This document shows, piece by piece, positions 8,146 through 36,307 of a stretch of 64,000 nt of DNA. Within the stretch, counting starts at the first letter, position 1, and every line of letters starts with the position of its first letter. The DNA is from Cupriavidus necator (GTDB lineage Bacteria > Pseudomonadota > Gammaproteobacteria > Burkholderiales > Burkholderiaceae): positions 186,001 through 250,000 of the forward strand of contig CP074382.1 of assembly GCA_022041995.1 (NCBI GenBank), in the 5' to 3' direction. The translations under genes were made by a program, and so were the position numbers. The notes beneath the pieces were generated by a model that saw only the letters and a program-made list of their open reading frames with translations, did no database searches and had not been told where the DNA came from.

Positions 8146-9113
8146 GATGTACCTCCATCGATCAGACTGCCAAAACCGACTTCGAACTGTTCGCTGGCGG
8201 CTTGCGCGAGCGCGGGCGTCCACCGAAGATAGTGGGCAGTTGAAAGGATTGATACGTGGCCCATGTACATCGAAAGCTTGGGTAGCTTGACCTGAACGTC
8301 CGCGCCGTCTTTATACCAGCGCAGCAAAGCGCCAATGGCGAAGCTGTGCCGAAGATCCAGGATGCGAGGTTGGCGCCCGTCAGCACCCTGAATCTGGGCC
8401 GAGCTCATCACCTGCGTGAACAAGTGCTGAAATCCGCCGCCGCTATAGCCGTGGAACCCTGCCACGCAGTGGCATAACAGCGGCGCATCGAGCCCGCAGT
8501 CGAACTGCGCCTGCAGTCGCTTGCGCAAATAACGGCGAACTTCTGCGCGCGCATCCTCCGACAATGGCAAAAAGCGTGATTTATGACACTTCGACTCACG
8601 GATATGCAGCACTCCTTGCGCCTCGTTCACATCGGCCAGGGTCAACCGTACGAGTTCGCCACGGCGGAGCCCGGCGCTATACAGCAAAACCACCGCCACT
8701 CGACATAGTGCTGGTCGAAGCGGGGATTGCCATGTGGCGCGAAGTCGATCGCAAGCATCCAGCATGCGGGCGATCTCCGTTCCGGAGACGATAACAGGAG
8801 GATCATGGGGACTGCTACGCCTAAACCGGCGTCGATCCGGTACGAAACAGTCTGGCTCGGTGCGCTGCCGGAAGCGACACAGCTTACACACAATCAGTTG
8901 CTGGTTCCGTTGCGTGATACCTCGCAAGGAGGAGAATGCCTGGCACCACGTCTCGAAGCCGTGCTGGGTTAGATCGCTGAAACCATGCTCGTTAAGGAAT
9001 CGACTCAACGACCTGAGGGTGTGCTCTTCCCTGACGTAGCGGCGGCCCAGCGCTCGCCAGTGCAGAAGATAGCGCTCGATAGCAAGATCGAGCGGGGTCT
9101 GAGGTTGGTTCAT
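8142..9113 (-). CDS. RIT tyrosine recombinase, second gene
   Basis: About 323 residues from ATG 9113 (MNQPQTPLDLAIERYLLHWR); that start overlaps the stop of the first recombinase by ATGA. The core-binding domain lies in the first 110 residues. The catalytic domain shows Arg in SAGLRRGELVRL, the box LDLRHSFAIGALLRW, MGHVSILSTA and Tyr in HYLRWTPALAQA. The box carries His and Arg in the variant spacing seen in RIT recombinases. It is intact, and it sits in the middle of the translationally coupled trio. Confidence 0.9.
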   Translation of the reverse strand: MNQPQTPLDLAIERYLLHWRALGRRYVREEHTLRSLSRFLNEHGFSDLTQHGFETWCQAFSSLRGITQRNQQLIVCKLCRFRQRTEPDCFVPDRRRFRRSSPHDPPVIVSGTEIARMLDACDRLRATWQSPLRPALCRVAVVLLYSAGLRRGELVRLTLADVNEAQGVLHIRESKCHKSRFLPLSEDARAEVRRYLRKRLQAQFDCGLDAPLLCHCVAGFHGYSGGGFQHLFTQVMSSAQIQGADGRQPRILDLRHSFAIGALLRWYKDGADVQVKLPKLSMYMGHVSILSTAHYLRWTPALAQAASEQFEVGFGSLIDGGTS

Positions 9114-10003
9114 GACAACCTCCGCGGCAGAGTGTTCGTGATTGCTGGCGGTAGCGAAAGGCCGACCTCTCTTAAAACCTCCGTTTGCAGACGAAGATAA
9201 ACGCATGTGCTTTCCAGGGATCGATGGCCCAGCAGGTCGCCTATTGCCTTGAGGCCGACGCCACGGTTCAATAGCCGCATTGCGAAGGCGTGGCGCAGGC
9301 TATAGGCGGAGCTTCCTTGTAGAGGCAGTCCGCTCGCGCGCGTGCAACTCTGATATATCTCGTTGACCGCCGTGGGGCACAATGCAGTTGCTGGCCGATG
9401 CGCCCGCAGAAACAAATCCGTTCGACCGCGGGCAACTGGCCTGCCGACCTTCAGATAACGTTTGAGTACGCGGGTGGCCTGAATGGACAACGGAAGGAGA
9501 AGCTCCGAACGAGTCTTGCGTTGCTGCACGCGCAAAGTCCTTTGCGTCCAGTCGATCGAGTCCAGCTGCAATGCGGCGATCTCCACAGGCCGCAAGCCGT
9601 AGTGCGCCATCAGATAGAGAATCGCATGGTCGCGGCAGCCAATCATGCTTGACCGATCGATGGAACGAAGTAGCGCGAGAACGTCGTTCCAAGGGAGTGC
9701 GCGTGGTGGCAATTCGTCGCGATACGCACGCGGGGTGTCGATCGTTCCGATGCGCTCGTGGATATAGCCACGGGTGTACAAGAACAAGAGGAACGACCGT
9801 AGATGCGCGACCACATGTTGCAAGCTCTGCCTGCTCATGTGCTCACCCGAAACCGCCACAAAGCGATCCACGGTTTGCATCGACATTCCCGCAAGAGGAG
9901 TCTCCGGGGCAACCGCGTCGTGCAAAAAGGCCATGGCCGTACGCATGTGGTTGCGGACGGTCGAAGCCGACATGCCGCGTTGATCGACCAGCGAGTCGCG
10001 GTA

Positions 10004-10891
10004 TGAATCACCCCGGGAATCGAGGAGGCTGTTTTGTTTAAGTTGATGCCGGGCCGCAGCGGTATCGCTGAGTTGCCGATAGTAGTTTGCCTCAGCTTCA
10101 GCCGGCGGGATATAGCCGAGGTATTCCATCAGGCGGTGGTTGTTGAACCAGGCCACCCATTCCAAGGTTGCAAGCTCCACGGCCTCGCGGGATTTCCAGG
10201 GGCCACGCCTGTGGATCAGTTCGGCCTTGTACAGGCCATTGATGGTCTCAGCCAGTGCGTTGTCGTAGGAGTCACCGCGGCTGCCCACCGACGGCTCAAT
10301 GCCGGCTTCAGAAAGCCTCTCGGTATAGCGAATGCTGACGTATTGCGATCCCCTGTCAGAATGGTGAATGAGCGTCCCGTCGTTGTCGGGATGGCGCGCG
10401 TAGAGCGCCTGCTCCAAGGCATCCAGAACGAAGTCCGTGGTCATCGAAGTGCTGACGCGCCAGCCAACAATACAGCGGGCGAACACGTCGATCACGAAGG
10501 CCACGTACAGCCAGCCCTGCCAAGTCGAAACGTAGGTGAAATCACTCACCCACAGTTGGTTGGGCCGTGTGGCGTGGAACTGGCGCTTGACGCGATCCAG
10601 AGGGCACGGCACCGAGTCGTCGGCCACTGTGGTGCGCTTCTTCTTGCCCCGGCGCACCCCCGCCAGGCCAAGCTGCTTCATCAGCCGTTCGACCGTGCAG
10701 CGCGCCACCGCCATGCCTTCCCGATTCATCTGTTTCCAGACTTTGTCCGCACCATAGACCTGCATATTGTCCTCCCAGACCCGCTTGATCGCAGGCCGCA
10801 GACGCTCATCGCGAATTGCACGGGCGCTACGTCGCGACGGATCACGAAGCCGTGCGGCATGGCGTCGGTAACACGACGGGGCAATCTGCAA
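10004..10891 (-). CDS. IS3-family transposase OrfB, fused in frame to the RIT recombinase tail
   Basis: Retroviral-integrase-type catalytic core: LWVSDFTYVSTWQGWLYVAF (first Asp), IHHSDRGSQYVS (second Asp) and DNALAETINGLYKAELI (Glu). The product is normally made by a -1 shift from orfA (10948-11271). There is no stop before the end of the element. The frame runs across the inverted repeat into the recombinase remnant and stops only at 9110, giving a 593-codon chimera. Transposase with a foreign 300-residue tail may or may not be active. Confidence 0.85.
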
Positions 10892-22097: not shown

Positions 22098-23568
22098 TCT
22101 TACTGTGTCACAAGAGAAGTCGTTTGTTTGGCCTCCGACAGCACGGACACATGGCGAGTCTACCAATCAAGAGAATGCTGAGTTGGTGGCGGATCGTGGT
22201 GATTGAATCAGCCACGTGTCGCTGGGCGCGCTGGGCTGCCCCGCGGGATGTAATCTGCGGAAAGCGCAGGCGTTTGGCGTGCAATGAAGTTTTTTTTGGC
22301 GCCGACTAAATCGCCGGTGGTAATACGTTCAGAGACCAGGACTCCATAGGCGGCTATGCTCAGCGCGGCATGGTGGTGAAAGCCCCGCCACCCTCGGCCT
22401 TCGTAATGGCCGAGACCCAACTCCTGCTTCAAGTCCTGGTAGTCGCGCTCGATGCGCCAACGCATGTGCGCCTGGGCGACCAATTCATCCAGCGCAATAT
22501 CGGCCGGGAGGGTGGATAGGAAGTACTTCAATGGGTCAGTGTCCCCAGTGGGCCACTCGATTAGCAGCCACTGCTCGGGGCGCAGACGCGCCTTGCCACT
22601 ATTACCGCCTGCGTGACGCACACGTACGGCGGCAAAGCGCCCACTGAGCGTTTCGTTTGAGCCTTCGCGCCAGCTAATCGTCTGGAATGCGGTAGGCGGC
22701 AGGGAATGCGCCAGTTCCTTGACGCTTATCGGCTGTCGATTGCGAGTGCGCCGCGGCATCACCGGCGGGCGGCCGATGCCGCTATATGGCTTCGGCGGCA
22801 ACGGCTCCACCCCCGGTGGCCAGACCACGACCGCCGACGTGATACCCACCACATACCGCATGCCCAGATCACTCAGACGCTGGCGAAATGCGTTGTCCAC
22901 CCCGTAGCCGGCATCCGCCAACACGCAATACTTTGGCGCGCCGGCGGCCAACAGCGATTCGAGCTGTTGCAGAGCAATCTCGGTCTTCGTTGTGAACCTC
23001 ACCTCGTCGGGAATTCCAGCCTTCTCACGCCGCTCAGTATCTTCCGCCCATTCCCGCGGTAGATAGAGCTGGTAGGCTACAGGCACACTCGCCTGCTCAC
23101 AGGCCAGAGACACACTGACCGCAACTTGGCAGTTGTCCTGCTTACCCAGCACCCCACAATACTGACGCGCGACCCCAACCGAATGTTTGCCCTTCTTTGG
23201 GAAGCCTGTGTCGTCAATGATCCAGAAGCCACCGGTCGAGAGATCCATCTTGGGCACTACCCACTGACTGACCCGGCGCAGCATCTCCTCATCGGACCAG
23301 TCGGCCTTGGCGACAAAGTGGTGCAGTGCCTGGTGCCGGGCGCTAGCGTGCAGCGGATCGACTCCAGCTGCCATCGGCTCCACACTCTTACGCGATAGCG
23401 GCAGCATCAGACCTGTGCAGTAGCCCTTGAGCCCAGCATGGCGGTCCGCATGCCCCAGTCCCGCCGCTAAATGTTCCATGTATTGCTCAAATCGCTCGCT
23501 CGCGCTCATCGCTCTTCATGAACTGTGCCAAGAAGTTTATAGTATGGCACATTTATGACACAGTAAGA
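22098..23568 (-). mobile_element. IS701-family element, copy 2 (intact)
   Basis: 1471 bp, inverted repeats TCTTACTGTGTCA, flanked by a perfect CTAA target duplication (22094-22097 and 23569-23572). Confidence 0.95.
22208..23509 (-). CDS. IS701-family transposase, intact copy
   Basis: 433 residues starting MSASERFEQYMEHLAAGLG. DDE-type catalytic features: FWIIDDTGFPKKGKHSVG (first Asp), KYCVLADAGYGVDNAF (second Asp) and the terminal helix MRWRIERDYQDLKQELGLGH with the Glu. About 60 bp separate the start from the inverted repeat. This is the only undamaged IS701 transposase in the window and probably the source of copy 1 (split) and copy 3 (truncated, frameshifted). Confidence 0.95.
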   Translation of the reverse strand: MSASERFEQYMEHLAAGLGHADRHAGLKGYCTGLMLPLSRKSVEPMAAGVDPLHASARHQALHHFVAKADWSDEEMLRRVSQWVVPKMDLSTGGFWIIDDTGFPKKGKHSVGVARQYCGVLGKQDNCQVAVSVSLACEQASVPVAYQLYLPREWAEDTERREKAGIPDEVRFTTKTEIALQQLESLLAAGAPKYCVLADAGYGVDNAFRQRLSDLGMRYVVGITSAVVVWPPGVEPLPPKPYSGIGRPPVMPRRTRNRQPISVKELAHSLPPTAFQTISWREGSNETLSGRFAAVRVRHAGGNSGKARLRPEQWLLIEWPTGDTDPLKYFLSTLPADIALDELVAQAHMRWRIERDYQDLKQELGLGHYEGRGWRGFHHHAALSIAAYGVLVSERITTGDLVGAKKNFIARQTPALSADYIPRGSPARPATRG

Positions 23569-23572
23569 CTAA

Positions 23573-24917
23573 CAGGCCGCTGAAGTACTCGCTGCAGACG
23601 GGGCAAAGCTTCCCCCTGCGCGACGCACATGCCTCGTATTTTTCATAATCCGGAAGCCGGGCGTCACTTCATCGATTTTCATGCGGTTTGATGCCCATTT
23701 TTAGCTTCCTTGCTCCCATTACAGTCCCTGCGGACGGATTTGTCCTAGCGTTCGCATCCGCACGAGGTTGTAAGCGGCCATGCTAAGCACAAACATCTGG
23801 TCGACCTTCTTCAAGCCGCGCACCATCACCTGACGCATGCGCCCGACCGTCTTGACCCAGCCGAAGCCCTGTTCGATCAGCTTGCGCTTCTGCTGCGAGA
23901 TGGCATAGCCGACGCTGCGGGCAATCTCATCGGGCACCGCCGAGCGTCGCCCTGAAGTGTTTTGCGCCACGTGCGGAGTCACCTTCATCTCCAGGCAGGC
24001 TTGAACGAACTCCTCGGCGTCGTAGCCCTTGTCCGCGCCCACGGTAACTTCGGCGCTCGGCTCGTTAGCAACCTGCCGGGCGTCGTTGAGCATGGCCTTC
24101 GCGGCCTCGCGCTCAGCATATCCGTCGGCTTGGGTCACCACGGCACTGACCACCAGGCCGTGGCGGTTGTCGCTCAAGGTGTGGCCCATATAGCGCAGCT
24201 CACTGGCAGTCTTGCCCTTGCGATAGAGCTTGGCGTCCGGATCAGTCTTGGACTGATGCGTCTCGTTGCTGCGCTTCTCTCCTTGGAAGCCGCCGGTGCC
24301 ACCGCTGTCGCTGTCGCTGTCATCGCCATTGCCGCCGTCCTTGCGTACGAAGCTCTTGTGGCCGGCCCAGGCCTTAATCATCGTGCCATCCACGCTGAAA
24401 TGCTCGCCCGACAGCAAGTTGCGCTTGTGCGCGATAGCCAGCACCTCGTTGAAGAACGTGATCACTGCATCGTGCTGGATCAGCCGTGCACGGTTCTTGG
24501 TAAACACCGTTGGCACCCAGACTGCGTCGTCCATCGACAGACCGATGAACCAGCGGAACAGCAAGTTGTACTGCGTTTGCTCCATCAGTTGCCGTTCGGA
24601 CCGAATGCTATACAGAACCTGCAGCAGCATCGCGCGCAGCAGCTTCTCCGGCGCAATGCTCGGGCGTCCGCCCTTGATATCGGCTTCGTACATGCTTGCG
24701 AACAGCCGATCCATCTTCGTCAAGGCCTGGTTGACCATGGTGCGGATCGGGCGCAACGGATGCGCTTGCGGCACGAAATCTTCGAGTCGCAGCATGGTGA
24801 ACAGGCTTTCGGTGAAGGTGTCGGCGCCGCGCATGAATCTCGGATGGAGTGGTATCTGGTAATCAACGCCTTGGCACGATACCGCGCTGACTTCGGGCTA
24901 GGTATTTCAGCTGCCTG
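23573..24917 (-). mobile_element. IS5-family element (371-residue transposase type)
   Basis: Ends CAGGCCGCTGAAGTAC (23573) and, on the other strand, CAGGCAGCTGAAATAC (from 24917); 1345 bp. The flanks are CTAA (shared with the IS701 duplication) and CTAG (24918-24921). It directly abuts IS701 copy 2 and cuts into an older IS5-type remnant. Confidence 0.85.
23719..24834 (-). CDS. IS5-family transposase (DUF772 plus DDE domain), intact
   Basis: 371 residues. The N-terminal DUF772 region (PEKLLRAMLLQVLYSIRSER, LMEQTQYNLLFRWFIGL) precedes the DDE_Tnp_1-like core: EHFSVDGTMIKAWAGHKS (first Asp), VTVGADKGYDAEEF (second Asp) and IEQGFGWVKTVGRMRQ (Glu). Between them is a low-complexity Gly/Asp/Ser linker (DDSDSDSGGTGGFQGEKRSN), a common feature of this subgroup. 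No frameshift. Unlike the element at 4573, it is not duplicated in the window. Confidence 0.93.
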   Translation of the reverse strand: MRGADTFTESLFTMLRLEDFVPQAHPLRPIRTMVNQALTKMDRLFASMYEADIKGGRPSIAPEKLLRAMLLQVLYSIRSERQLMEQTQYNLLFRWFIGLSMDDAVWVPTVFTKNRARLIQHDAVITFFNEVLAIAHKRNLLSGEHFSVDGTMIKAWAGHKSFVRKDGGNGDDSDSDSGGTGGFQGEKRSNETHQSKTDPDAKLYRKGKTASELRYMGHTLSDNRHGLVVSAVVTQADGYAEREAAKAMLNDARQVANEPSAEVTVGADKGYDAEEFVQACLEMKVTPHVAQNTSGRRSAVPDEIARSVGYAISQQKRKLIEQGFGWVKTVGRMRQVMVRGLKKVDQMFVLSMAAYNLVRMRTLGQIRPQGL

Positions 24918-25140: not shown

Positions 25141-25535
25141 TGAACCGGTTTAGCAGTAGGAAACTGGCTCGTTTGACAAAAAATGCGCGGGACCTGGCTG
25201 AGCCGCTATCCATGGACGAACAATAGAATTGTCTATTGGAGATGCGGAGTCTTAGTCGATTCTGCGAGGCGGCAATGTGCACTAGATGACAAATTGCAAC
25301 AATTTCAACAGCGCGTTCCACCGTCATAACGACCGCAAGGTCTCCATACCCGCATGAAGCCTGCTTTTGCCCTAAACACACGACAGGCACAGCCCTTGCA
25401 CTGCTCTTGATAGCCTCGGGCCCGTCAGGGAATGAGCCTGGTGCCGGTGCTCAGATTTTTGACAAATGAGCGGCGCCCTTAATCGTCGGGCCCACTGCTT
25501 TCCAGCGATAGCCCCCAGTGTTGCAAGTAAAGGCC
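25141..25535. other. Non-coding stretch upstream of the sulfotransferase operon
   Basis: No convincing gene on either strand. A 102-codon minus-strand frame (25082-25390) merges with the transposase remnant and has no recognisable family. The promoter of the operon that starts near 25536 should lie here, but I cannot point to a clear -35/-10 pair. Confidence 0.4.
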
Positions 25536-26519
25536 ATGTTCACTCTTGCCATCCCGCCCATGTTCAACTCGTCACTAGACTCCACTTTACTCCCACTGCG
25601 TTCTAACCCTCTCCTCCTCGGCGGCGAAGACCGCTCCGGCACCACCTTGCTTAGCATCCTGCTCGACTCGCACCCGGATTTGGTCGTAGGCCCGGAGATC
25701 GATTTTACAGAGCCAGTTAACCTAGGCCCCCATATTCTCGCAGTATGCGCCATGATGGCCTGTCAGGATCCACGGGTCACCGGTACGACGAAGGAAACCA
25801 TCGACTTTAAGTGGTTCGACGGCGTGCACTTCGTCTTGCAATGTGAACGTTTCGGCTTGGACCGAGACGACGTACAGGAACTGGTGGCCCGTCTGATGGC
25901 CGAGCGTGGCACCGACCTGTCTACACTGGAGGACCGCTGCTTCCTTATCGACTCTATTGGCGAGTTCCGACGTCAACAGACCGGGGCGAAGCGATGGGGC
26001 CTAAAGCTTCAGCGGAGGATCCAGGACATCGGCACATACGCCACCATTTGGCCAAAAGCCCATTTTGTCCATATCATCCGCGACGGCCGCGATGTGGCAG
26101 CCTCCCATGCTAACGTCCCCGACTGGGGCCATCGGAGTATCGCGGAGGCCGCGCAGGGCTGGCTAGAGGTCGTCACCCGGCCGCGCCTTGGGGCGCCGAG
26201 TGGTCGCTATCTCGAAGTTCGATACGAGGATCTGGTCACTGTCCCGCGTGAGACAGTCGCACGGATGCTGGAATACCTTGGCTTGCGATGGAACGAAGCG
26301 GTTCTGCATCACGCAGAGCACAAGCACGCGCTCTTCGACAAACCGTGGGGCCACCCCTCAGCTGAAGCCGCTGCTCAACCGCTATACACAAGGTGTATTG
26401 GGCGGTACTTGCAAGACCTTACGCCGCAGGAGGTTGAGCAGTTCGAGCGGATAGCCGGCAATGAACTGGAACAGTTCGGCTACAAGCTGTCCGTGCCGGC
26501 TTTGCGGGGCGGGGAATGA
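25536..26519 (+). CDS. PAPS-dependent sulfotransferase
   Basis: 327 residues from ATG 25536 (a GTG at 25518 and an ATG at 25563 are alternatives; none has a clear ribosome-binding site). The 5'-phosphosulfate-binding loop is LLLGGEDRSGTTLLSILLDS (residues about 28-48). The 3'-phosphate-binding motif is HFVHIIRDGRDVAASH (about 176-191). YLEVRYEDLVTVPRETV and the C-terminal helix fit the Sulfotransfer_3 family of bacterial small-molecule and protein-tyrosine sulfotransferases. It should transfer sulfate from PAPS to a hydroxyl or amine in the cytoplasm. It is the first gene of the operon and overlaps the exporter gene by ATGA. The facing APS-kinase-like gene suggests a dedicated PAPS supply. 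Confidence 0.88.
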   Translation: MFTLAIPPMFNSSLDSTLLPLRSNPLLLGGEDRSGTTLLSILLDSHPDLVVGPEIDFTEPVNLGPHILAVCAMMACQDPRVTGTTKETIDFKWFDGVHFVLQCERFGLDRDDVQELVARLMAERGTDLSTLEDRCFLIDSIGEFRRQQTGAKRWGLKLQRRIQDIGTYATIWPKAHFVHIIRDGRDVAASHANVPDWGHRSIAEAAQGWLEVVTRPRLGAPSGRYLEVRYEDLVTVPRETVARMLEYLGLRWNEAVLHHAEHKHALFDKPWGHPSAEAAAQPLYTRCIGRYLQDLTPQEVEQFERIAGNELEQFGYKLSVPALRGGE

Positions 26520-27862
26520 TAGACGTTGCAAACGAAACACCACGACACCGCTTGCCCGGCAGCTTCTATCTTCTTCTCTTGGGCGAGACGGTTTCCCGCG
26601 TCGGCTCCCAGGTGACCCTCATCGCCCTACCCCTGACCGCGATCCAACTACACCGAGCAGGGCCGCTTGAGACAGGCTTCCTGCTAGCCTGCGGACGCGC
26701 CCCGTACCTTCTGCTGGGCCTGCTTGTCGGGGTCTTCGTCGATCGGCTTTCACGCCGGATTCTTCTGACTGCGGCAAATTCGATAATGGCGCTAACGCTG
26801 GCGACCGTACCAGTGACTGCTTTACTAATCGGACACGTCGGCATGCCCCATCTCTACACAGTTGCTACACTGGTGGGTGGGGCCACGGTGATCGCCGACG
26901 TGGCCTTCTTGGCATGTGTGCCAACTGTCGTGCCGCCCCATCAACTAGTACAAGCGCAGAGCTGGCTAGAACTGGGACAATCGGCGGCATTGGTACTTGG
27001 CCAGCCGCTCGCAGGCTGGCTGATCTACTCCTTTTCCGCGCCTATCGCGATACTTGCAGATGCGGCGTCGTTCCTTCTGGTGACGGTGCTGCTTCCATAC
27101 GTGGTGATGACGCCGATAACAAGTACGCCGGTGACAAGTAACCACAACGATGACGACGCTAGGGGCATCCTTGAACGCATCCTCTCGGAGGCGGCAGAGG
27201 GCGCGCTATTCGTGCTACGCACTCCCGGACTACGCGCAGTCACCTTTGCCACCGGCACTCTCATCCTTTGGTACAGCGCCTACTCCGCTGTCTTTCTGTT
27301 GTATCTAACCGAAGAATTGGGGCTAAACGCCACAATGGTCGGAACGGTCTCAGGCATCGCCGCCACCGGAAGTGCTATCGGGGCATTGCTCGCTCGTCCT
27401 GCTGCTCGAGCGTTAGGCTTGGGTCGCGTGCTAATCGCAGCGCTCCTTATCAGCGCCGTCGGCGCGATGCTAACCCCCATGCTTGATGTGCCAGGATGGT
27501 TATCGGTGGGACTGTCGCAATTCGTATTGTGGATCGGCCAGCAGCTCTACAACGTCCATCAGGTACCGATCCGCTATGCCTTGGCTCCGCCTCAACTGCA
27601 CGGACGAGTGAACGCGAGCATCCGGACCATCGTGTGGGGACTTGCTCCATTCGGCGCCGTGCTGGGCGGCGCCTGTGGAGCATGGCTTGGCGTACGCGCG
27701 ACGCTACTGCTCAGTGGAGCCCTCATTGCCGCAGCCGCTGCGTGGATCTTGGCATCTCCTCTGCGATCCGTGCGTACACCGCAGCTCGTGGAGGCACGCA
27801 CCGAACCGGGGTCTGCCACCATTGTCTCCAATTGCTCTCGGACAACACGCGCCACACCATGA
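26516..27862 (+). CDS. MFS exporter
   Basis: 448 residues with about 12 hydrophobic segments and typical MFS loop signatures: GVFVDRLSRRILL in loop 2-3 and the ALGLGRVLIAALL region in the second half. The closest general match is the EntS/MFS_3 class of siderophore and antibiotic exporters, with a helix-breaking central loop around residues 205-225 (TPITSTPVTSNHNDDD). It lies inside a biosynthetic operon, overlapping its neighbours by ATGA on both sides, so it most likely exports the cluster product or gives self-resistance. It appears intact. Confidence 0.88.
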   Translation: MIDVANETPRHRLPGSFYLLLLGETVSRVGSQVTLIALPLTAIQLHRAGPLETGFLLACGRAPYLLLGLLVGVFVDRLSRRILLTAANSIMALTLATVPVTALLIGHVGMPHLYTVATLVGGATVIADVAFLACVPTVVPPHQLVQAQSWLELGQSAALVLGQPLAGWLIYSFSAPIAILADAASFLLVTVLLPYVVMTPITSTPVTSNHNDDDARGILERILSEAAEGALFVLRTPGLRAVTFATGTLILWYSAYSAVFLLYLTEELGLNATMVGTVSGIAATGSAIGALLARPAARALGLGRVLIAALLISAVGAMLTPMLDVPGWLSVGLSQFVLWIGQQLYNVHQVPIRYALAPPQLHGRVNASIRTIVWGLAPFGAVLGGACGAWLGVRATLLLSGALIAAAAAWILASPLRSVRTPQLVEARTEPGSATIVSNCSRTTRATP

Positions 27863-29342
27863 AGCTCACCGACATGCTATCGCCTAGTCTATCTCCGGGC
27901 TACCTCACCGTCTGGCGGGCCACGGCACCACACATATCCGATCCCAATTGGATAGCCGACGCTCGGCGGCCGTCCCACGTGCAGGAAGCCCACATCACGT
28001 CTGCACTTGAGGCAGCTGGTGACGGTCCCTTGTATCCGTCTTGGCTGGCCTGCACCTTCGACCTGCCCGGTGAATTCAATGCAGTTGCTTTCGCCACGGC
28101 GTTGCGTGACTGGATAACCCGCCACGAAACCCTCCGTAGCCAGCTCACCCCTGCCTCGTGCGTCCCACCTGGTGGCCGATTCCACCGCAAGACGCTACCA
28201 GCCGAGGCCGTGAGAATCCGCCCCAGTACGGCGGTGAACTTCACCGACGGCCGCAAGTTGGCGCGACATCTGGAAAACCTGTTCGACAGTGAGGTCCTCG
28301 CTGTCGGCTGGCCTGGCTATCTTCCCGCCACCGTCAGCCGCCCGGAAGCAACCACCGTCTATGTCGCCGCGGACCACACTCTAATGGACGGCTACTCAAT
28401 TTTCCATACTGCGTATGAGCTTCAACTACTGTATGCGTCAGCACTCGCGCCCTCAAGCAGCGCAACCACCTCCCCTCTCCCCCACCCGACGGCAAGCTAT
28501 CTCGATTTCGCAGAGGCCGAACGGAACGCCGCCGATGCGTTAACCGCGGAACACGCATCTATAGCGCGCTGGCGGACTTTTGTTGCCGAAAGCGGGGGAC
28601 GCCTGCCGCAGTTCCCTGTATCAGTAAGCGATGCGACCGGATGCCCTGCCGCGCAGCCAAGCGGATACACAGAGCTTCTCAACGCATTTGACGCACTCTC
28701 CTTCAATCAGGTCTGCCGCGCAGTTGGGGGCAATTCCTTTGCTGGGCTTCTCGCCTGCCTTGCAAAGGTAGGCCAAGAAATCAGCGGCTCGAACGTATTC
28801 CGTACCATGGTCCCGTCAATACACAGACGGATCCGTCCCAATTATCCATAGGGTGGTACGTGGGTATGGGTCCAGTGGCCTTCACGCTAAATGGAACAGA
28901 CTCTTTCTCTGACGCGGTGCGTTCGGCGGTTGCAGGTCTAGCCGGGCTGAAGGACCTGGCCCGGATACCGCTACCCCGAGTGGCGCAACTCCTCGGCCTG
29001 TCCCTGCGCGACCCTTTCATGGTTTCGTACATGGACCTTCGGCGTACGCCTGGGGCGAGCAGTTGGAACACCTGGAGAACCACCGTCTTCCGTAGTCGCT
29101 GCACCGATCCTGAAGAGGTGTTTCTTTGGTTCATACGTACTCATGATGGCTTCTCCATTAGCTATCGCCACCCCGCCACCGAATTGGCAGGCATTGCGGT
29201 CCCCCACTACGTGGCCAGCACAAAAGCTTTGCTTGCCGCCGTCGCGAACAATGGCGGTTGGCCCGCACTGACATCCCATCTCAAAAAGGAGACCATTGCA
29301 CATGACGGATATCAGACACATTGCGGCGGCCGCATCTCGTGA
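27859..29342 (+). pseudogene. Condensation/PapA-like acyltransferase, one-base frameshift
   Basis: About 494 residues if the frame is repaired. The N-terminal half (27859-28851) resembles condensation and PapA acyltransferase domains: WLACTFDLPGEFNAVAFATA, RHETLRS and the active-site motif at residues 172-178, DHTLMDG, in which the first His of HHxxxDG is Asp but the catalytic second His and the Asp are kept. At about 28813 one base is missing. The next frame gives VNTQTDPSQLSIGWYVGMGP, which is the family's floor-loop region, and continues to 29342. This enzyme would form an ester or amide between a carrier- or CoA-bound acyl group and the cluster intermediate. Either the gene is freshly dead or this is a sequencing error. 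Confidence 0.78.
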
Positions 29343-30792
29343 TTACACAAGCTTCGATGTTGTTATCGTTGGCTCAGGGCCTTCGGGATCGATTGCTGCC
29401 CGAACACTTGCCGAAAAAGGTTGTCACGTTGCCGTCCTCGAGTATGGAGGCTTGGTATCCCAAGGTGCGCTATACGGGCCCCATCAGGCAGCCTACAGCA
29501 AGGCACGCACATCTTCCCACGGTCGCGCCGATGGAAATCCGTGGACCGCGTGTGCCGTCGGTGGAGGAATGGAGTTTTACAACGCGATCACGTTCAGATA
29601 CCGACAAGCAGATCTCTCGGCCTCCCAATACCTGAGGACTGACATGGAGATAGACTGGCCCATTGCCCTTCAGGATCTCGAACCTTTCTATTCCGAAATA
29701 GAGAATCTATTAGAGATTAGTGGTACGAATGGATTTCGGCCATATCCGGCAAGCCCGCGAGGACTATTGATATCCGATGCCATGCAAGAACTTGGCATCA
29801 AGGCAAAGAGTATCCCACTGGCGATCCGACAACCCAAAACCACCAATGGATGCATTGAGTGCTCGGGTTGCGACGACCTGGTGTGCCCTACAGATGCAAA
29901 AGCAAACATACGCACACGAAGTATTCTTGACGACTCCGCCTTACCAGGAACGATTTCGGTGCTGTACGGATGCTTTGTCAACGCGATCGAACTCCGAAAC
30001 GACTGCCGTGCAGAAGCCCTTGAGTGCTATGTGCCGCTCTCCTCGCGACGGATTAGAATTCCAGTTAAAACCGTCATCGTCTGTGCAAACGCAATTCAGT
30101 CAGCGGCATTAATGCTTCGCTCGACTAGCCGTCATGCACCGACAGGAATAGGAAATGATTCTGACCTTGTAGGGCGCGGCCTCTCATTCAAAATCAGCGG
30201 ATACTCCGTCGGCTACATGAAGAATACAGCCCCGGTGCCTGCACATTGGGGGCCGCACGCGACCGTGTATACGGACGACTTCTATGAGCACCCTGACGTG
30301 CCATGCAGATTTGGTGGCCTGATCTATGAAGCAAATTTCCCTTCGCCGGGAGATAACATCGGCCTCGTGCGGTTACACTACATCGCCGGGGAAGAACCTT
30401 GGTCACACAACCGTGTCATGCTTGATGCGGCCATTGACCCACACGGGGTTCCTTACGTCCGTATCGCATATAAAAACTCTGAAAATGATCTCGCACGAAT
30501 TAGCTTTCTCGCTAACCGGGCCGAAGACACACTGCGCCGCTTAGGCGCATCCTGCATCGAACGCATGCCCTTTTCCCGCGGGAAAGGCAGTTGCCATCTG
30601 CACGGCACAATGCGAGCCGGTTCCGATCCAAAGACTTCAGTAGCCGACCGCTACGGTAGGATTCACGGGTTAACAAACATCTATGTTATGGATGGCTCCG
30701 TGATGAACTTCGCCGGAAACAGCAATCCGACGCACACCATCATGGCCAACGCGAGGCGAATGGCCCTGTCACTAGCCGAAAGGGGAAACTAA
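29302..30792 (+). CDS. GMC-family FAD-dependent oxidoreductase
   Basis: 496 residues from ATG 29302, preceded by GGAG at a 10-base spacing (a TTG at 29296 is less well placed). It has the FAD Rossmann motif DVVIVGSGPSGSIAARTLAE (residues about 20-40), the GMC signature region around AVGGGMEFYNAITFRYRQAD and the C-terminal active-site domain with His in GSCHLHGTMRAGSDP and Asn in NFAGNSNPTHT. A four-Cys run CIECSGCDDLVC (about 184-195) resembles the Cys motif of bacterial GMC dehydrogenases. It should oxidise a primary or secondary alcohol to a carbonyl. Paired with the next gene it would allow conversion of C-OH to C-NH2. The gene looks intact. Confidence 0.9.
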   Translation: MTDIRHIAAAASRDYTSFDVVIVGSGPSGSIAARTLAEKGCHVAVLEYGGLVSQGALYGPHQAAYSKARTSSHGRADGNPWTACAVGGGMEFYNAITFRYRQADLSASQYLRTDMEIDWPIALQDLEPFYSEIENLLEISGTNGFRPYPASPRGLLISDAMQELGIKAKSIPLAIRQPKTTNGCIECSGCDDLVCPTDAKANIRTRSILDDSALPGTISVLYGCFVNAIELRNDCRAEALECYVPLSSRRIRIPVKTVIVCANAIQSAALMLRSTSRHAPTGIGNDSDLVGRGLSFKISGYSVGYMKNTAPVPAHWGPHATVYTDDFYEHPDVPCRFGGLIYEANFPSPGDNIGLVRLHYIAGEEPWSHNRVMLDAAIDPHGVPYVRIAYKNSENDLARISFLANRAEDTLRRLGASCIERMPFSRGKGSCHLHGTMRAGSDPKTSVADRYGRIHGLTNIYVMDGSVMNFAGNSNPTHTIMANARRMALSLAERGN

Positions 30793-32046
30793 ATGAGCAG
30801 TTTCGGAGCTGCCGGTCATTTGGCTGAGTGGGAGCGTGAAACCCGCACGTCCATCATATTTCGATCCGCCAATGGCGCAACGGCGGAGGATATCGACGGC
30901 AAGATTTATCTTGATATGACGTCCTGCAGCGGGTCTTCACCCTTGGGAAGTAATAACGCTGTATTCAAAGCCAGATTTTCTCAAGCTATGGAGAAAGATA
31001 CTGACGTTCTTCCATCGGCGGTGAGCATGCAACGCCAGATACTAGCTGAGAAGATCTCGATGAAATTCCCAGCCATGCCTAGGGTGTTCTTCTTGAGGAC
31101 CGGATCTTGTGCAACGGAAGCCGCCGTCCGCATCGCGCGACACCGAACCGGCCAACCGATTATTCTAACGGCTGGTTTTCACGGCTGGCATGACATCTTT
31201 CAACAGTACCCGTGGCAGGAAACCCCACCGGCCAATGATCATTACATCCAAGATTTTCAGTATGATTTAGATATCTTGGAGCAACAGTTGAGTCGGAACA
31301 GAGGCAAAGTCGCCGCCATTTTCGTCACGCCAGAGCCGTCAGTCTTTCCTCCGGAGTTACTCCACCAAATCGCTAGGATGGCTATACTGCATGGAGCGCT
31401 GTTGATCGTTGACGAGGTGCTTTGCGGCCTTCGTTACGCCAATGGTGGCTACTGTCAACGGCACAAAGTCCCAGCCGACCTGATCACCTTGGCCAAAGGG
31501 ATCGCACAGGGAATCGGCCTTTCCGCGGTCATTGGCACCGCCGATGCCATGTCCGGGGCTGACGGGGTTTATCTTGGCAACACCTACTTACGCGAAAATC
31601 GCGCCTTTGTCGCCGGTAACCTAACGCAGGAAATCTTCGAAGAAGATGGCACCGTGGCTCGCTTGGCGGAAAGCGGGGCGGCGCTCAAGAGGTTGTTCGA
31701 CGAGTCATTCGCTCGCTCCGGAATACCCGCGCGTGTATTAGGAAGCGACACCATGTTCGATATCGTCATGCCTTCGCAAAGGCATGGACAGGCATTTGTT
31801 CGAAGGTGCCTTCAGTACGGTATCTACACAGGCTACCCGGCCACGTACATGAGCAATGTTTCCATGGGCGACAAATTCTTCAGCGCTTTACAAGAGGCGC
31901 TGAAGGGGGCGCTAGCAGACTACTGCAAAGACGAGGATATGACTGCGCAGGTAACGGACAGGTCCATGGTGGAATACTGTTGGCAGGCGTTCCGCGCGAC
32001 AGAGAATGCTTGTCTTTCCAACAAGACTTATTGGGCGCGATCATGA
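30793..32046 (+). CDS. Class III PLP-dependent aminotransferase (glutamate-1-semialdehyde aminomutase-like)
   Basis: 417 residues, starting directly after the GMC stop. Fold-type I features: GSCATEAAVRIARHRTG (phosphate-binding region), AGFHGWHD, the cofactor Asp in LLIVDEVLCGLRYANGG (about residue 206) and the PLP Lys in ITLAKGIAQGIGLSAVIG (about 235). YLGNTYLRENRAFVAGNLT is the substrate-side loop. Class III enzymes transfer an amino group to an aldehyde or ketone, or shift it within a molecule, so this enzyme would aminate the carbonyl made by the GMC oxidoreductase. The 3' end overlaps the HAD gene by ATGA. No defects seen. Confidence 0.9.
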   Translation: MSSFGAAGHLAEWERETRTSIIFRSANGATAEDIDGKIYLDMTSCSGSSPLGSNNAVFKARFSQAMEKDTDVLPSAVSMQRQILAEKISMKFPAMPRVFFLRTGSCATEAAVRIARHRTGQPIILTAGFHGWHDIFQQYPWQETPPANDHYIQDFQYDLDILEQQLSRNRGKVAAIFVTPEPSVFPPELLHQIARMAILHGALLIVDEVLCGLRYANGGYCQRHKVPADLITLAKGIAQGIGLSAVIGTADAMSGADGVYLGNTYLRENRAFVAGNLTQEIFEEDGTVARLAESGAALKRLFDESFARSGIPARVLGSDTMFDIVMPSQRHGQAFVRRCLQYGIYTGYPATYMSNVSMGDKFFSALQEALKGALADYCKDEDMTAQVTDRSMVEYCWQAFRATENACLSNKTYWARS

Positions 32047-32616
32047 TAAACGTTCGAGTGAACGAATACGATCATGTAGCCTTTGACTTGGATGGCGCCC
32101 TCGTTGACTCGGAGGCAGTCGTTAAAGGCGCGCTCCGTCGTTGGGCGCAGGGGAAACTAATTTCGCCGGATTATGTCCTACGGATGTCTGCGTCCGGTCG
32201 AGATGTCGAACTGATAGCTGCCATTGCGCCTGGCCTATCGCCGGAGCGTGAAGCCGCTCGCATTGCACAATATGAAATCCAAGCGATGCAGCTGTTACGG
32301 CCGATAGCGGGCGCCGCAGAATTCTATCGCTCCATCCCAATCGAATGGAGATGAATGGAGATCAATTGTGACCTCTTCCAGTTCGACGAGCTATCAAGAG
32401 CCGCAAAGGGCTGTCGGAGCTCGAGTACACAAATCGCGCAGCTTCCAAGATGGTGCAAATCGATTCAATTTGCTCTATCTAGTTTTGCAGCGACGCAGTG
32501 CGCGGAGCCGTTCAAGCCAAAGTCACCTGAGAGAGATGGCTGAAGAGTCCGGTACCGAGGTACGAACGGTCAAGGATTTGCCGCTCGACCTCGACGCCAA
32601 GCGCTCCATCGCCTGA
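32043..32616 (+). pseudogene. HAD-family phosphatase, broken by a 10-bp duplication
   Basis: The N-terminal motif I FDLDGALVDSEAVV is readable, followed by a helical cap (ALRRWAQGKLISPDYVLRMS). The unit GAATGGAGAT occurs twice in tandem at 32343-32362. Removing one copy turns the premature stop IEWR-stop into IPIEWRSIVTSSSSTSYQEP, which is HAD motif II (IVTSS). Resemblance to the family fades after about 32416, and the Lys/Asp motifs III and IV are not found, so the 3' half is also lost or replaced. When intact it would have removed a phosphate from a pathway intermediate. Confidence 0.82.
32343..32362. repeat. 10-bp tandem duplication in the HAD phosphatase gene
   Basis: GAATGGAGAT twice in a row (32343-32352, 32353-32362). 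It introduces the stop that ends the HAD frame at 32354. Confidence 0.92.
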
Positions 32617-32861
32617 TGATCTGCTTCACATCGCGATAGTCAAAGTATTTTATTTTTGGCAGGGAAGTCCTAGGAATAAGGATCGCAAACGGCGGCGGCC
32701 TCTTAGCGGAGCAAACGCCAACATTACTGTAAGACCGACGATCAGCGGCTAAAGGAGGATCCCGGCTTACGAGTACAAGAAGACCCCGATTGGTGTCCTG
32801 TTCGGTCCAAGCGGCATGCCAAACACTAATATTATTCCCGAGAGTTCCTTTGCACTAACAT

Positions 32862-33473
32862 TCAAAGGCTCCTCCTAAGTTTTGTCATTGACAAATTTGG
32901 CGATCTACTTAGGAGCGCCAAATGAATCGTACGTGCCACCTGCTTCAATTCTTCTATCGTCTTATATCCGCTCACCCGAAATGCATAGTCTGTGGGAGCT
33001 TTATACATCTTGCGCGTATCTGCAAACCTAGACTCGTCAGCGGTTATCGTGTTCATGAACACGGTGTAGACTGGATACTCGGCCGCGTCCAGAAAGGCTC
33101 TGCGTGTTTCCACAGTGGGACAAACAAAATCCACAATGCAATAGTCGTTCGCCCCGTAGTTTAGCGTCAGATTGGCAATTTCGGACATACGACGCGCGTG
33201 CTCAATGCGATGCACCAAACTAAACGTCAAGTCACGATTTATATTTTCCCGAACAAAATCCGCATTAACCCAGCTAGCTGTCGGCATTAGATCCAGAAGC
33301 ATTCGAGCGAGGGTGGTCTTGCCAGCTCCTGGAAGACCTTGAATCAAGACGATGACCCGCTCTTTGTGTTGCATATCCCATTTATTCATGATTAATTGAT
33401 TATGTCCTCGATGAAATTCCGCAATGAACCGCCCTTCCATTTTTGATGGATTTCTCATCCACGCCCCGTCCAT
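32862..33473 (-). CDS. Adenylylsulfate (APS) kinase-like P-loop protein
   Basis: 203 residues in the full frame. Other possible starts are ATG 33440 and ATG 33389; none has a clear ribosome-binding site. Walker A is IQGLPGAGKTTLARMLLDLM (residues about 45-64). NADFVRENINRDLTFS, HRIEHARRMSEIANL, then a beta strand and Pro (IVDFVCPTVETRRAFLDA) follow the APS-kinase order, where the pattern is D-nucleotide-loop, N-R-D-L-x-F-S, D-R-x-E-x-x-R-R and a strand ending in Pro. It would phosphorylate APS to PAPS, the donor for the sulfotransferase at 25536. A more distant gluconate-kinase or zeta-toxin-like kinase role cannot be excluded. Confidence 0.72.
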   Translation of the reverse strand: MDGAWMRNPSKMEGRFIAEFHRGHNQLIMNKWDMQHKERVIVLIQGLPGAGKTTLARMLLDLMPTASWVNADFVRENINRDLTFSLVHRIEHARRMSEIANLTLNYGANDYCIVDFVCPTVETRRAFLDAAEYPVYTVFMNTITADESRFADTRKMYKAPTDYAFRVSGYKTIEELKQVARTIHLALLSRSPNLSMTKLRRSL

Positions 33474-33815: not shown

Positions 33816-35047
33816 CGTGCTTATCCGGTTAGCTCCCAAACCTACTAGATGTAGTGGGTAGCGATTTTTTGGCATAGAGCTCGGCATAGGTCGGCGCGGT
33901 GACGTCACCAGCGATGCCGAGCAGGGAGCGAAATGCATTGAAGGGATAGAAACGACGGTTGAAGCGGAAGGTAAATTCGTTGAGATAGGCTTGCAGGTGC
34001 TGCGGGCTGACACCGTGATGAATTCCGCGCAGCCAGGTCTTGAGATTGGAGAACACAAGGTGAATGATCGGCAGGAAGGATTCGGTCACTTGCATCTCAC
34101 CGCGCTGCGCGATGGCGATATGGCCATAGCCGCGCTCGCCCAGCTTGGCATAACCGTTCCAGTCGTCGGTGATGATGGTTGCGCCGGGTGCAACGGTACG
34201 CTCGATGAATCCGCCCAGCGACCGGGCACTTCGGTCAGGAACCAGAGCGAGCCGAACTCGTCCGGCATACCGTCCGCTCTTGCGTTTGTTGCGGCTGCCG
34301 GCAAGTTTGCGTTGCCGAACCTCGACAGCGCCGGCCACAAGAACCATGTCGTGCACGCCCCTGCCTTTGCCGCGAGTACGCCCACCGACGTAGGTCTTAT
34401 CGGCCTCGACGTGTTCCTCAGGCTTGCCACCGATCCGATCCTGGTCGGGGCGCACCATGCCGGCGCGCAACTTGTGGAGTATCTGGAAGGCGGTCTCGTA
34501 ACGCGACAGGTCGAGTTGGCACTGGAACTGAACGGCCGACATGCCAGGTGTCTGACTGGCGACCAGTTACGCCGCCCAGAACCAAACCGACAGCGGTGTG
34601 TGCGTGCGCTCCATGACGGTGCCAGCAGTGAGGCTCGTGTCGCGTGTGCAATGGCGACAACGGAAAACGCCGGGGCGATTGGCAAAGCGGTACGGCTCAC
34701 CAAGCAAGCCACAGTGGTCACAAATGAACCCATCGCTCCATCGAGCGCGCTCAAGGTAGGCCATGCATGCCGCTTCGTCTGGAAACATCCGCTGAAACTC
34801 CGGCAGCGAGCCCGGAAACGGTAGATCGCCTCGGTCAAGCACGTCAATAACCATGGTTGCCCCGGGGTGGCACAGATGACCAACATACTATCGGTAGAGG
34901 GCTTGGGAGACAACCGGATAAGCATGGCATTTCGCTCCCTGCTCGGCATCGCTGGTGACGTCACCGCGCCGACCTATGCCGAGCTCTATGCCAAAAAATC
35001 GCTACCCACTACATCTAGTAGGTTTGGGAGCTAACCGGATAAGCATG
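33816..35047 (-). mobile_element. IS1595-family unit: full copy 2 plus an inverted 121-bp piece of its 3' end
   Basis: A complete 1111-bp IS1595 (33816-34926, reverse orientation) is followed directly by 121 bp (34927-35047) that repeat the transposase 3' end in the opposite orientation. Both outer ends are therefore the same terminal repeat. A perfect 8-bp duplication GAAGATAG flanks the whole unit (33808-33815 and 35048-35055). Confidence 0.9.
33829..34854 (-). pseudogene. IS1595-family transposase with a nonsense mutation
   Basis: Same protein as 15569-16594 but with TAT changed to TAA after VWFWAA (near 34566). It leaves a 95-residue N-terminal zinc-ribbon piece and a separate C-terminal frame (33829-34542). 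A few other substitutions are present (for example Gln-Arg to Gln-Cys in VQFQCQLD). It was probably mobilised, if at all, by the intact copy. Confidence 0.93.
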
Positions 35048-35055
35048 GAAGATAG

Positions 35056-36307
35056 ATCGAATGCCACCAGCTTCAAGTTGATCAAGATCAAAAACAGAAA
35101 CCCACGCTCCATCGATGACACTTGCTCCAGCTTACCGCAGGGCGTCTGATGGGGTATCCACGATGCGTTCACCGCTGCACTCCCATTCGAGGTCAGACAG
35201 CGCCGTGGTCGATCTACGAAACGTGGTGCAGACCCGTTCCCCGAGCAGAAGTTTAGGCGTCGATAGACACGTCGAACTCCGAACCATGAGGGCAAACGCA
35301 CCGTATAAGCAAAAGAATAAGCAGTGCACGGTTATACGCTTGATACAGCGGTCAATGGATATTGACAAATTGCATTAACCCTTATGGAGTAAAACGTAGC
35401 AGCATTGTCCACAAAGCTACATTTGCAACAATGATTGATACATCGTGCGTCGGCGCCTCGAAAAAAATAGCGAGTGACCATGACGAACTGCCTGGCATAA
35501 CCCTTGCTGATCCCTTGATTGCCATCCAAGCGGGGAGCGCCAGGTGCCCAGGTCTCTTTACTAATGAGCGACTTATGGTAATAGCTAGCCTCGCGAACTG
35601 TTGCCAGCAATAGAGCGTGGGGAGTCCTAAACAAGCGGTCTGAAGGGCGACTGATGGGTTACCCCAACTGGCACAACTCATGCACATTGGCAACGGTATC
35701 TAAATGAATACTGACATTGGTCAACCCCAGTAGCAATGAAACCGCGAACGACAGCATATCCGCATCGTGGTGCAACGCTGCCCCCACGGATCACCACCGA
35801 GGATAGTGGCACACAGATTTTCTGTAATGCGATGCAAGGTTGAACGCATGGCCGAATGGAGTCCGGCACGCTGGCCGCGAATGTACGGCGGCGACCCTTT
35901 TCTTGCATCTTGGGAAATGCGGTCGGAGCGGAATTCTTGCTCTCCACGCCGTCTTCGCGTAATTCGAGCATAGCCTTCCAGAAGGCTATTATGACGGAAA
36001 GGAGAACTCGAATGCTTCACCCCGAGTACCAGAAAGAATGGCACAGGGCGAAATTTGGACTGCGAAAGAGGCTCACCTTGCGGGCGCACTCATTCGGACA
36101 ACGTACTTGCCGACTTGCATCTGCCATATTTTTGCGAGCCCGACACCCGACGCCCTCCAATGCTTGGCGTAACGAGTTCTGTTTAATAGCGACTTTATAC
36201 ACGGTGCAATTGCTAATTTTTTCCGTTATTTGGATAATCGAATGAATTGAAGCATAATGTTTTGACTCAAAGCGAATATCATTCTTCAACCAAATTAACG
36301 TTATACA
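35056..36307. other. 1.25 kb without a recognisable gene
   Basis: Several 60- to 130-codon frames overlap on both strands, but none has family resemblance, a good start or consistent codon use. Near 35056-35300 the minus strand has protein-like fragments (GAWVSVFDLDQLEAGGIRSI) that could continue the broken gene on the far side of the IS1595 unit. AT content rises towards 36300. Confidence 0.4.

Follow-up and report, generated by a model that had tools for sequence, protein, structure and literature searches.

A decayed gene cluster in Cupriavidus necator, with relatives across Proteobacteria, predicted to make a sulfated, acylated amino-disaccharide

Introduction

Trehalose sulfolipid chemistry is known from mycobacteria, where sulfolipid-1 is a trehalose-2-sulfate acylated by PapA2. 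Amination at C-6' of aminoglycosides is carried out by a GMC-type oxidase together with a class III aminotransferase, and trehalosamine-type antibiotics are built on an amino-trehalose core. Here we analyse a block of genes (25536-33473) in a 64 kb window of Cupriavidus necator DNA, which corresponds to positions 186,001-250,000 of contig C3 (770,893 bp) in a 9.6 Mb genome (G000; other G and L codes denote the other genomes and loci compared). On balance, the block appears to be a copy, now decayed, of a biosynthetic cluster that has spread horizontally; as judged from the gene families that it shares with its relatives, the product would be a sulfated, acylated amino-disaccharide, most probably an amino-trehalose lipid. 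What was read directly from the sequence is the gene content and families, the co-occurrence with nodA, the promoter-like motifs and the damage to the window copy, all described below.

Like the sulfolipid-1 pathway, the cluster is predicted to combine a trehalose-type scaffold, a sulfotransferase, a PapA2-like acyltransferase and a dedicated exporter; unlike that pathway, it encodes its own TreT-like scaffold enzyme and an amination pair, has no Stf0-type match and occurs in Proteobacteria alongside nodulation genes. Neither a polyketide synthase nor an MmpL gene appeared, by annotation or inspection, within the cluster in the loci read, and no profile search was aimed at them. The pairing of a GMC oxidoreductase with a class III aminotransferase recalls aminoglycoside C-6' amination, whose enzymes are the best Protein Data Bank (PDB) matches of the latter, whereas the cluster GMC protein is not nearest to the aminoglycoside oxidase. 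The cluster glycosyltransferase has the N-terminal domain of archaeal TreT (PDB 2x6q), but is embedded in a biosynthetic operon and falls below the NCBIfam cut-off. Nod factor biosynthesis is encoded on the same symbiotic replicons and the predicted product is likewise a sulfated, acylated sugar; the cluster, however, has a different gene set with no chitooligosaccharide enzymes. Finally, the predicted amino-trehalose core would be shared with trehalosamine-type antibiotics, to which the cluster product would add sulfation and acylation; we found no gene-cluster paper on trehalosamines in the open-licence PubMed Central literature.

No description of the cluster was recognised in that literature either, and it is apparently undescribed. 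The searches made, which ran without a database of characterised clusters, returned no characterised counterpart, and the words sulfotransferase, GMC and trehalose are absent from the main texts of PMC9554594 and PMC5789663 by word search. The Rhizobium leguminosarum protein GmcA, required for nitrogen fixation in symbiosis according to the title of the report (PMC7105596), is a different GMC protein, set apart here by description only. If our reading is correct, trehalose sulfolipid-like chemistry, with an amine in addition, occurs in Proteobacteria and tracks nodulation genes in two rhizobial classes, and in some root-nodule bacteria Nod factors are accompanied by a further kind of sulfated, acylated sugar product. 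This raises the question of whether such an acyl-sugar is in fact made by some rhizobia and, if so, is active in the nodule. The eight-gene operons found in Pseudomonas offer a handle for expression, and the uneven decay in Cupriavidus provides natural losses to compare.

Results and discussion

Conservation of the cluster across genera

A first-pass annotation of the window had taken the block for a biosynthetic unit rather than a set of chance neighbours, and had envisaged that an intact version with a scaffold gene might exist elsewhere. Both expectations were borne out. A scan of GTDB contigs yielded seven loci, from three Cupriavidus, two Pseudomonas (P. indica and PIC25), Mesorhizobium alhagi and Sinorhizobium sp. 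8-89. In a plasmid collection, seven records encoded a GMC protein of at least 60% identity (two C. taiwanensis, two S. americanum, two S. fredii and S. terangae); six were fetched as loci, S. americanum CCGM7 being left out, and the gene map was built over 19 loci. In both Pseudomonas loci the full set of eight genes is present, arranged as sulfotransferase, MFS exporter, PapA-like acyltransferase, GMC oxidoreductase, aminotransferase, HAD phosphatase, glycosyltransferase and adenosine 5'-phosphosulfate (APS) kinase. These are the only eight-gene copies seen, and neither genome has nodA. The gene order is common to alpha-, beta- and gamma-proteobacteria, so that the genes recur together rather than among unrelated neighbours, and chance adjacency was rejected.

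The five Sinorhizobium loci retain the sulfotransferase, PapA, GMC, aminotransferase and HAD genes and, in every case, a whole glycosyltransferase gene. M. alhagi has this same gene set, likewise with no MFS gene, and in G134 (an 18 kb region) only the sulfotransferase, PapA, GMC and aminotransferase genes were found. The GMC proteins are 87-89% identical within Cupriavidus and 74-78% identical to those of other genera; because identity between proteobacterial classes still reaches 75-79%, the data suggest that the cluster has spread horizontally. A FastTree phylogeny of GMC plus sulfotransferase recovers one clade each for Cupriavidus, Sinorhizobium and Pseudomonas, support being lower at the deep nodes (0.34 and 0.88). 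Some of these loci do not count as independent: over the block, G008 and STM8555 share 99.99% identity, and no differences separate STM6070, SWF66294 and G081 in the stretches compared. Among viral contigs, 59 pattern matches included no relative of the cluster.

Beside the cluster, four Sinorhizobium loci (L020, L021, L022 and L045) have an AraC-family or helix-turn-helix regulator gene after it and hydrogenase (hup/hyp) genes upstream, and resistance-nodulation-division efflux genes follow it in L020, L021 and L045, with the permease not listed in L020. These neighbours might stand in for the lost exporter, or might record the history of the plasmid at that site.

Gene families and predicted product

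The choice of trehalose as the sugar rests on two enzymes whose pointers are independent of each other. The first is the glycosyltransferase, of which the window retains only a C-terminal remnant (32361-32483, + strand, equivalent to homologue residues 426-467). The S. americanum protein matches PF21269 (TreT_GT1) at 124.3 bits against a cut-off of 27 (E 4e-36), and its PDB matches are TreT (9e-41 for 2x6q, and 6e-40) and trehalose phosphorylase/synthase (5e-38), besides a further, weak match. At 163 against 775 bits, it lies well below the NCBIfam TreT_Thcocales equivalog cut-off. The protein is thus best described, from homology, as a TreT relative outside the archaeal TreT equivalog. An NST-FGGG stretch aligns between the cluster glycosyltransferase and TreT, and what we take to be the EX7E motif is visible by eye. 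Two Streptomyces plasmids and a haloarchaeal one encode more distant TreT relatives; these were set aside, their neighbouring genes being unlike the cluster by annotation.

The second is the PapA-like acyltransferase, which in the window is split into a first piece (27859-28851, + strand; PF00668 below cut-off, in this piece only) and a second piece in a different frame (28812-29342, + strand; homologous to residues 318-493 of the intact protein). The best PDB match of the G008 copy is PapA2, the trehalose-2-sulfate acyltransferase (1.9e-19, the next match being at 0.077), and the P. indica protein matches PapA2 over nearly its full length at 3.3e-27, followed by a nonribosomal peptide synthetase C domain at 3.5e-13. 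H172 and D176 of the xHxxxD motif, which we take to be the catalytic motif of these acyltransferases, are invariant in 6/6 aligned copies and are also kept in the first window piece; the first residue of the usual HHxxxD is Asp here.

The putative amination pair follows. The GMC-family oxidoreductase gene (29302-30792, + strand; PF05199/PF00732) encodes four Cys residues, spaced C-x2-C-x2-C-x4-C, that are invariant in 11/11 copies. The class III, pyridoxal-phosphate-dependent aminotransferase (30793-32046, + strand; PF00202) has as its top six PDB matches C-6' aminotransferase, 6'-epimerase/C-6' aminotransferase or NeoN entries (3.6e-39 for 7lm0 and 1.9e-36 for 7lld).

The block opens with a sulfotransferase of the type that uses 3'-phosphoadenosine-5'-phosphosulfate (PAPS) (25536-26519, + strand; Sulfotransfer_3, PF13469), whose eight PDB matches are seven protein-tyrosine sulfotransferases and one polyketide synthase domain. 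The MFS exporter (26516-27862, + strand; PF07690) matches TIGR00900 and EntS-type models below cut-off. The HAD phosphatase, an N-terminal fragment in the window (32043-32354, + strand; PF00702 below cut-off), belongs to a sugar-phosphatase-like group, with PRK11587 below cut-off and PDB matches to sugar phosphatases and beta-phosphoglucomutase-like proteins. The APS-kinase-like P-loop protein, encoded convergently (32862-33473, - strand), meets the Pfam PF01583 cut-off but not that of NCBIfam apsK (44.8 versus 138.7 bits), which the P. indica cluster APS kinase passes at 253.4 bits. The gene for the latter overlaps the P. indica glycosyltransferase gene, and the PIC25 protein is 95% identical to it. 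Structure models of PapA and GMC (mean pLDDT, the predicted local distance difference test score, about 31) were not used.

Taken together, these families would allow the following route, in which activities, substrate, position of the amine and product are all predictions. The TreT-like glycosyltransferase would join a nucleoside-diphosphate sugar to glucose to give trehalose, while the HAD sugar phosphatase might release glucose from its phosphate or trim a phosphate. The GMC enzyme would oxidise one hydroxyl to a carbonyl, which the aminotransferase would turn into an amine, C6 being the likeliest position. The sulfotransferase would add sulfate from PAPS, with APS kinase activity provided by the operon gene in Pseudomonas or by the nod-region APS kinase in the window genome; the PapA2-like enzyme would attach a fatty acyl group, and the MFS protein would export the product.

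Several matches speak against parts of this route. No trehalose sulfotransferase of the Stf0 type is among the eight PDB matches of the window sulfotransferase, and the nearest NCBIfam model of the aminotransferase is glutamate-1-semialdehyde aminomutase, far below cut-off. The best PDB match of the S. americanum GMC protein is fructose dehydrogenase (1e-19), with glucose dehydrogenase and pyranose oxidase also matched, and the 6'''-hydroxyparomomycin C oxidase is a weaker match at 8e-8. Fructose and glucose dehydrogenases and pyranose oxidase act on secondary or anomeric hydroxyls. A product that is free of trehalose or aminated otherwise would fit these relatives, which NCBIfam and the PDB both return: the TreT-like enzyme, far under its equivalog cut-off, may join other sugars, or the GMC enzyme may oxidise C2, C3 or C4 to give a keto-derived amine, as in trehalosamines, rather than an amine at C6. 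We consider such a product rather unlikely, given that the aminotransferase is nearest to C-6' enzymes in the PDB and that the PapA2-likeness points to trehalose independently.

The amino-trehalose lipid is thus our preferred product. The first-pass annotation had proposed a small acylated, sulfated amino compound, perhaps an aminocyclitol or amino sugar; the general description is still the best inference, and the TreT-like and PapA2-like enzymes make an aminocyclitol less likely than trehalose. An aminocyclitol scaffold was also rejected on the relatives' loci read, where no such gene is annotated, with no profile search aimed at one.

Decay of the Cupriavidus copies

The order of the seven genes originally listed for the window is supported by Pfam, with the qualification that the acyltransferase gene is split, the HAD frame is a 103-residue fragment and the APS-kinase-like protein falls short of its NCBIfam model. 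The intact G008 acyltransferase aligns to window positions 27862-28815 in one frame and to 28812-29339 in another, placing a frame break near 28812, which could be a true mutation or an assembly error. The same doubt attaches to nifH on this contig (G000:C3:364059-364873), which is spread over two overlapping frames, the first part being interrupted by an in-frame stop, and which indicates either decay of nitrogen fixation in the window strain or an error of assembly. For the HAD gene, homologue residues 18-124 of 229 match 32031-32351, and homology extends out of frame to about 32391. The glycosyltransferase remnant that follows, with 48% identity and an E-value of 5e-9 (in a search against 1 kb), bears on the earlier statement that no scaffold-making gene is visible: a scrap of such a gene is present, and the whole gene exists in relatives. 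The simplest reading is that one deletion removed the end of the HAD gene and nearly the whole glycosyltransferase gene. The frame break, the HAD fragment and the glycosyltransferase scrap together rule out an intact cluster in the window.

Other Cupriavidus copies have been reduced differently. In G008 and STM8555 the genes are retained as far as a whole aminotransferase, and HAD and glycosyltransferase genes were not seen. The MFS match is split and lacks its first 17 residues in STM6070, WGlv3, SWF66294, G081 and G082, unlike in amp6. G077 has PapA fragments fused to a glycosyltransferase C-terminus, plus a split APS-kinase-like gene. The APS-kinase-like gene adjoins the cluster in G008 and STM8555 and the remnant in G077. 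In 60 Cupriavidus genomes, the only glycosyltransferase match was the C-terminal piece in G077, the window remnant being too short for the threshold (E <= 1e-20). None of the 21 plasmid matches to the glycosyltransferase came from Cupriavidus, those of at least 80% identity being five Sinorhizobium records. On these genome and plasmid searches, relocation of the scaffold gene elsewhere in Cupriavidus was rejected. A C-terminal remnant survives in both the window and G077, so the glycosyltransferase gene was most likely present in the ancestor of the Cupriavidus copies and then lost by different deletions.

This pattern of loss is the principal difficulty for a working pathway. Pathway genes have been lost in every Cupriavidus copy examined, and no whole glycosyltransferase gene was found in the 60 genomes. 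The aminotransferase match stops at 76-89 residues in amp6, STM6070, WGlv3, SWF66294, G081 and G082, in WGlv3 at a contig end. Outside Cupriavidus, the PapA gene of M. alhagi is in three pieces, and the MFS gene of Sinorhizobium is reduced to a scrap of 34-62 residues in four of the five loci and is missing from the fifth.

Trehalose may nevertheless still be supplied from elsewhere in genomes that lack the cluster glycosyltransferase, because a GT20 (trehalose-6-phosphate synthase family) gene was present in 10/10 genomes tested. Reduced function on trehalose of another source and ongoing loss are both possible explanations for the Cupriavidus copies.

Association with nodulation genes

The contig that carries the window also carries nodA (334975-335553), and the 15 kb around it encode nodU, nodS, nodA, nodJ, nodI, nodC, nodB and an APS kinase, each scoring over its NCBIfam cut-off, as well as a separate sulfotransferase (Pfam) whose sole PDB match is NodH (E 5e-5). 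Across the genomes and records with the cluster or a remnant, 13/15 have nodA, the exceptions being the two Pseudomonas. Among 60 Cupriavidus genomes the cluster GMC gene occurs in 7/9 with nodA and 0/51 without (Fisher p 9e-8), and in a sample of 394 Rhizobiaceae in 6/23 with nodA, two of these 23 calls being weak matches, and 0/371 without (p 2e-8); both p-values treat genomes as independent, though plasmid-borne traits are co-inherited, and so describe association, not cause. The two other nodA-bearing Cupriavidus are G077, with its cluster remnant, and G019, in which the GMC, glycosyltransferase and aminotransferase genes were not found. The cluster therefore tracks nodulation genes in two classes of rhizobia.

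The cluster GMC gene was not found in 17 of the 23 nodA-bearing Rhizobiaceae. In a Burkholderiaceae sample of 299 genomes, which overlaps the Cupriavidus set, the cluster occurs in seven, all Cupriavidus, while nodA is above cut-off in 16, of which the eight from other genera all lack the cluster GMC gene. In 298 Pseudomonadaceae, the cluster was seen in the two seed genomes only. Moreover, the full pathway cannot be needed for nodulation, because the Cupriavidus and M. alhagi copies are broken.

The cluster might decorate Nod factors, lipopolysaccharide or exopolysaccharide rather than make a small product. Sulfation and acylation are known Nod-factor decorations, and the S. americanum sulfotransferase weakly matches NoeE (E 5e-5, far below cut-off). 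We regard this as very improbable: the nod region of the same contig has its own sulfotransferase and APS kinase, the eight-gene copies are in Pseudomonas genomes devoid of nodA, and the cluster has a glycosyltransferase, an amination pair and an exporter of its own.

NifA/sigma54-type promoter elements

Bacterial NifA binds upstream sites of the form TGT-N10-ACA, and sigma54 promoters have the consensus GGCAC-N5-TTGC. The 64 kb window contains a single strict sigma54 -24/-12-like box (GGCAC-N5-TTGC[AT]), present as GGCAC-N5-TTGCA at 25386-25400 (+ strand), against 0.4 expected from Markov-shuffled sequence, and a TGT-N10-ACA site resembling a NifA upstream activator lies 94 bp upstream of it (25276-25291, + strand). 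A strict pair with a gap of 94-97 bp precedes the cluster in 9/9 Cupriavidus loci that hold the region, and of the 10 strict pairs in 24 loci (539,793 bases) only one lies elsewhere (L020:41316). In the window, the pair has been retained though the proteins have diverged by 11-24% from the other Cupriavidus copies compared. The Cupriavidus operon may thus stand behind a NifA/sigma54-type promoter and be switched on in nitrogen-fixing nodule bacteria.

Other observations are less favourable to NifA control. The nine promoter loci represent about four distinct sequences, and the upstream regions of nifH in G000 and G008 contain no match to the pattern used; by eye, TGGCACG-N4-CTGC is seen upstream of nifH in both genomes, accompanied by TGT-N10-ACG in G000 and by a comparable stretch in G008. 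Scanning of seven upstream regions from outside Cupriavidus gave no pair within 900 bp, and any NifA control therefore looks like a Cupriavidus feature. Lone strict sigma54 boxes occur elsewhere; the 41 kb of L018 contain three, including that of the cluster. With a looser box, two further pairs appear in the window, away from the cluster, at 35406-35508 (+) and 39862-39667 (-), against 0.03 expected; either the null is too low or there are other targets. Of 14 upstream regions, only that of L022 contained the core nod box pattern and none contained the extended one, the L010 region being shortened by a contig end.

Extra strict sigma54-like boxes were also noted in L018 (24101-24115, +), immediately upstream of a DUF2165 gene beside the cluster, and in L007 (18173-18187, +); no NifA-type site pairs with either.

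Constraint and possible role

In comparisons of the window with G008, the ratio of nonsynonymous to synonymous substitution rates (dN/dS) is 0.11 for GMC, 0.14 for the APS-kinase-like gene, 0.19 for the aminotransferase, 0.24 for the sulfotransferase and for PapA piece 2, 0.25 for MFS and 0.39 for PapA piece 1; over 17 gene comparisons it ranges from 0.065 to 0.43. By this measure, the cluster genes have been constrained for most of their divergence.

What the product would be for is a separate matter. The cluster could well be an antimicrobial or niche trait, carried along with the nodulation genes and in the process of disappearing, with the Cupriavidus copy a non-functional relic; this would be compatible with the predicted product, since it concerns role, and we see it as a substantial possibility, if short of an even one. 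In its favour, the sole eight-gene copies are in bacteria lacking nodA, Cupriavidus has undergone several different losses, M. alhagi and G134 are damaged or incomplete, and many nodA genomes do without the cluster. Persistent constraint, the promoter-like pair kept in the window despite protein divergence and the whole glycosyltransferase genes of Sinorhizobium argue the other way. By analogy with mycobacterial trehalose sulfolipids, some alpha- and beta-rhizobia might instead carry, alongside their nodulation genes, a second, non-Nod-factor pathway to an amino-trehalose sulfolipid, made in Cupriavidus in the nodule under NifA and directed at the host or at competitors; we offer this as a speculative and, at present, unlikely proposal, in which expression and role are predicted as well as product.

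The damage to the window copy, the tie to nodulation genes and the NifA/sigma54-type promoter elements of Cupriavidus all go beyond the first-pass annotation.

Genomic setting of the window block

Apart from the convergent APS-kinase-like gene, the genes of the block lie in order on the + strand, and the tight joins noted at first inspection are confirmed: ATGA overlaps at 26516-26519, 27859-27862 and 32043-32046, a 41-base overlap between acyltransferase piece 2 and the GMC gene (from 29302), and abutment of the GMC and aminotransferase genes at 30792/30793. The block was also correctly placed between insertion sequence (IS) elements, with IS701 and IS5 transposase genes upstream (22208-24834) and an IS1595 transposase gene downstream (33829-34542), all with models above cut-off. 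The window around it is largely insertion-sequence debris. Of the large open reading frames scanned outside the block, 8/10 match transposase models (ISAzo13, IS3, IS481, IS66, IS4 twice, ISL3 and IS110), IS481 and IS66 below cut-off. At 9110-10891 (-), a single open frame combines an IS3-type transposase region with one resembling a XerC/D tyrosine recombinase, whose match is below cut-off.

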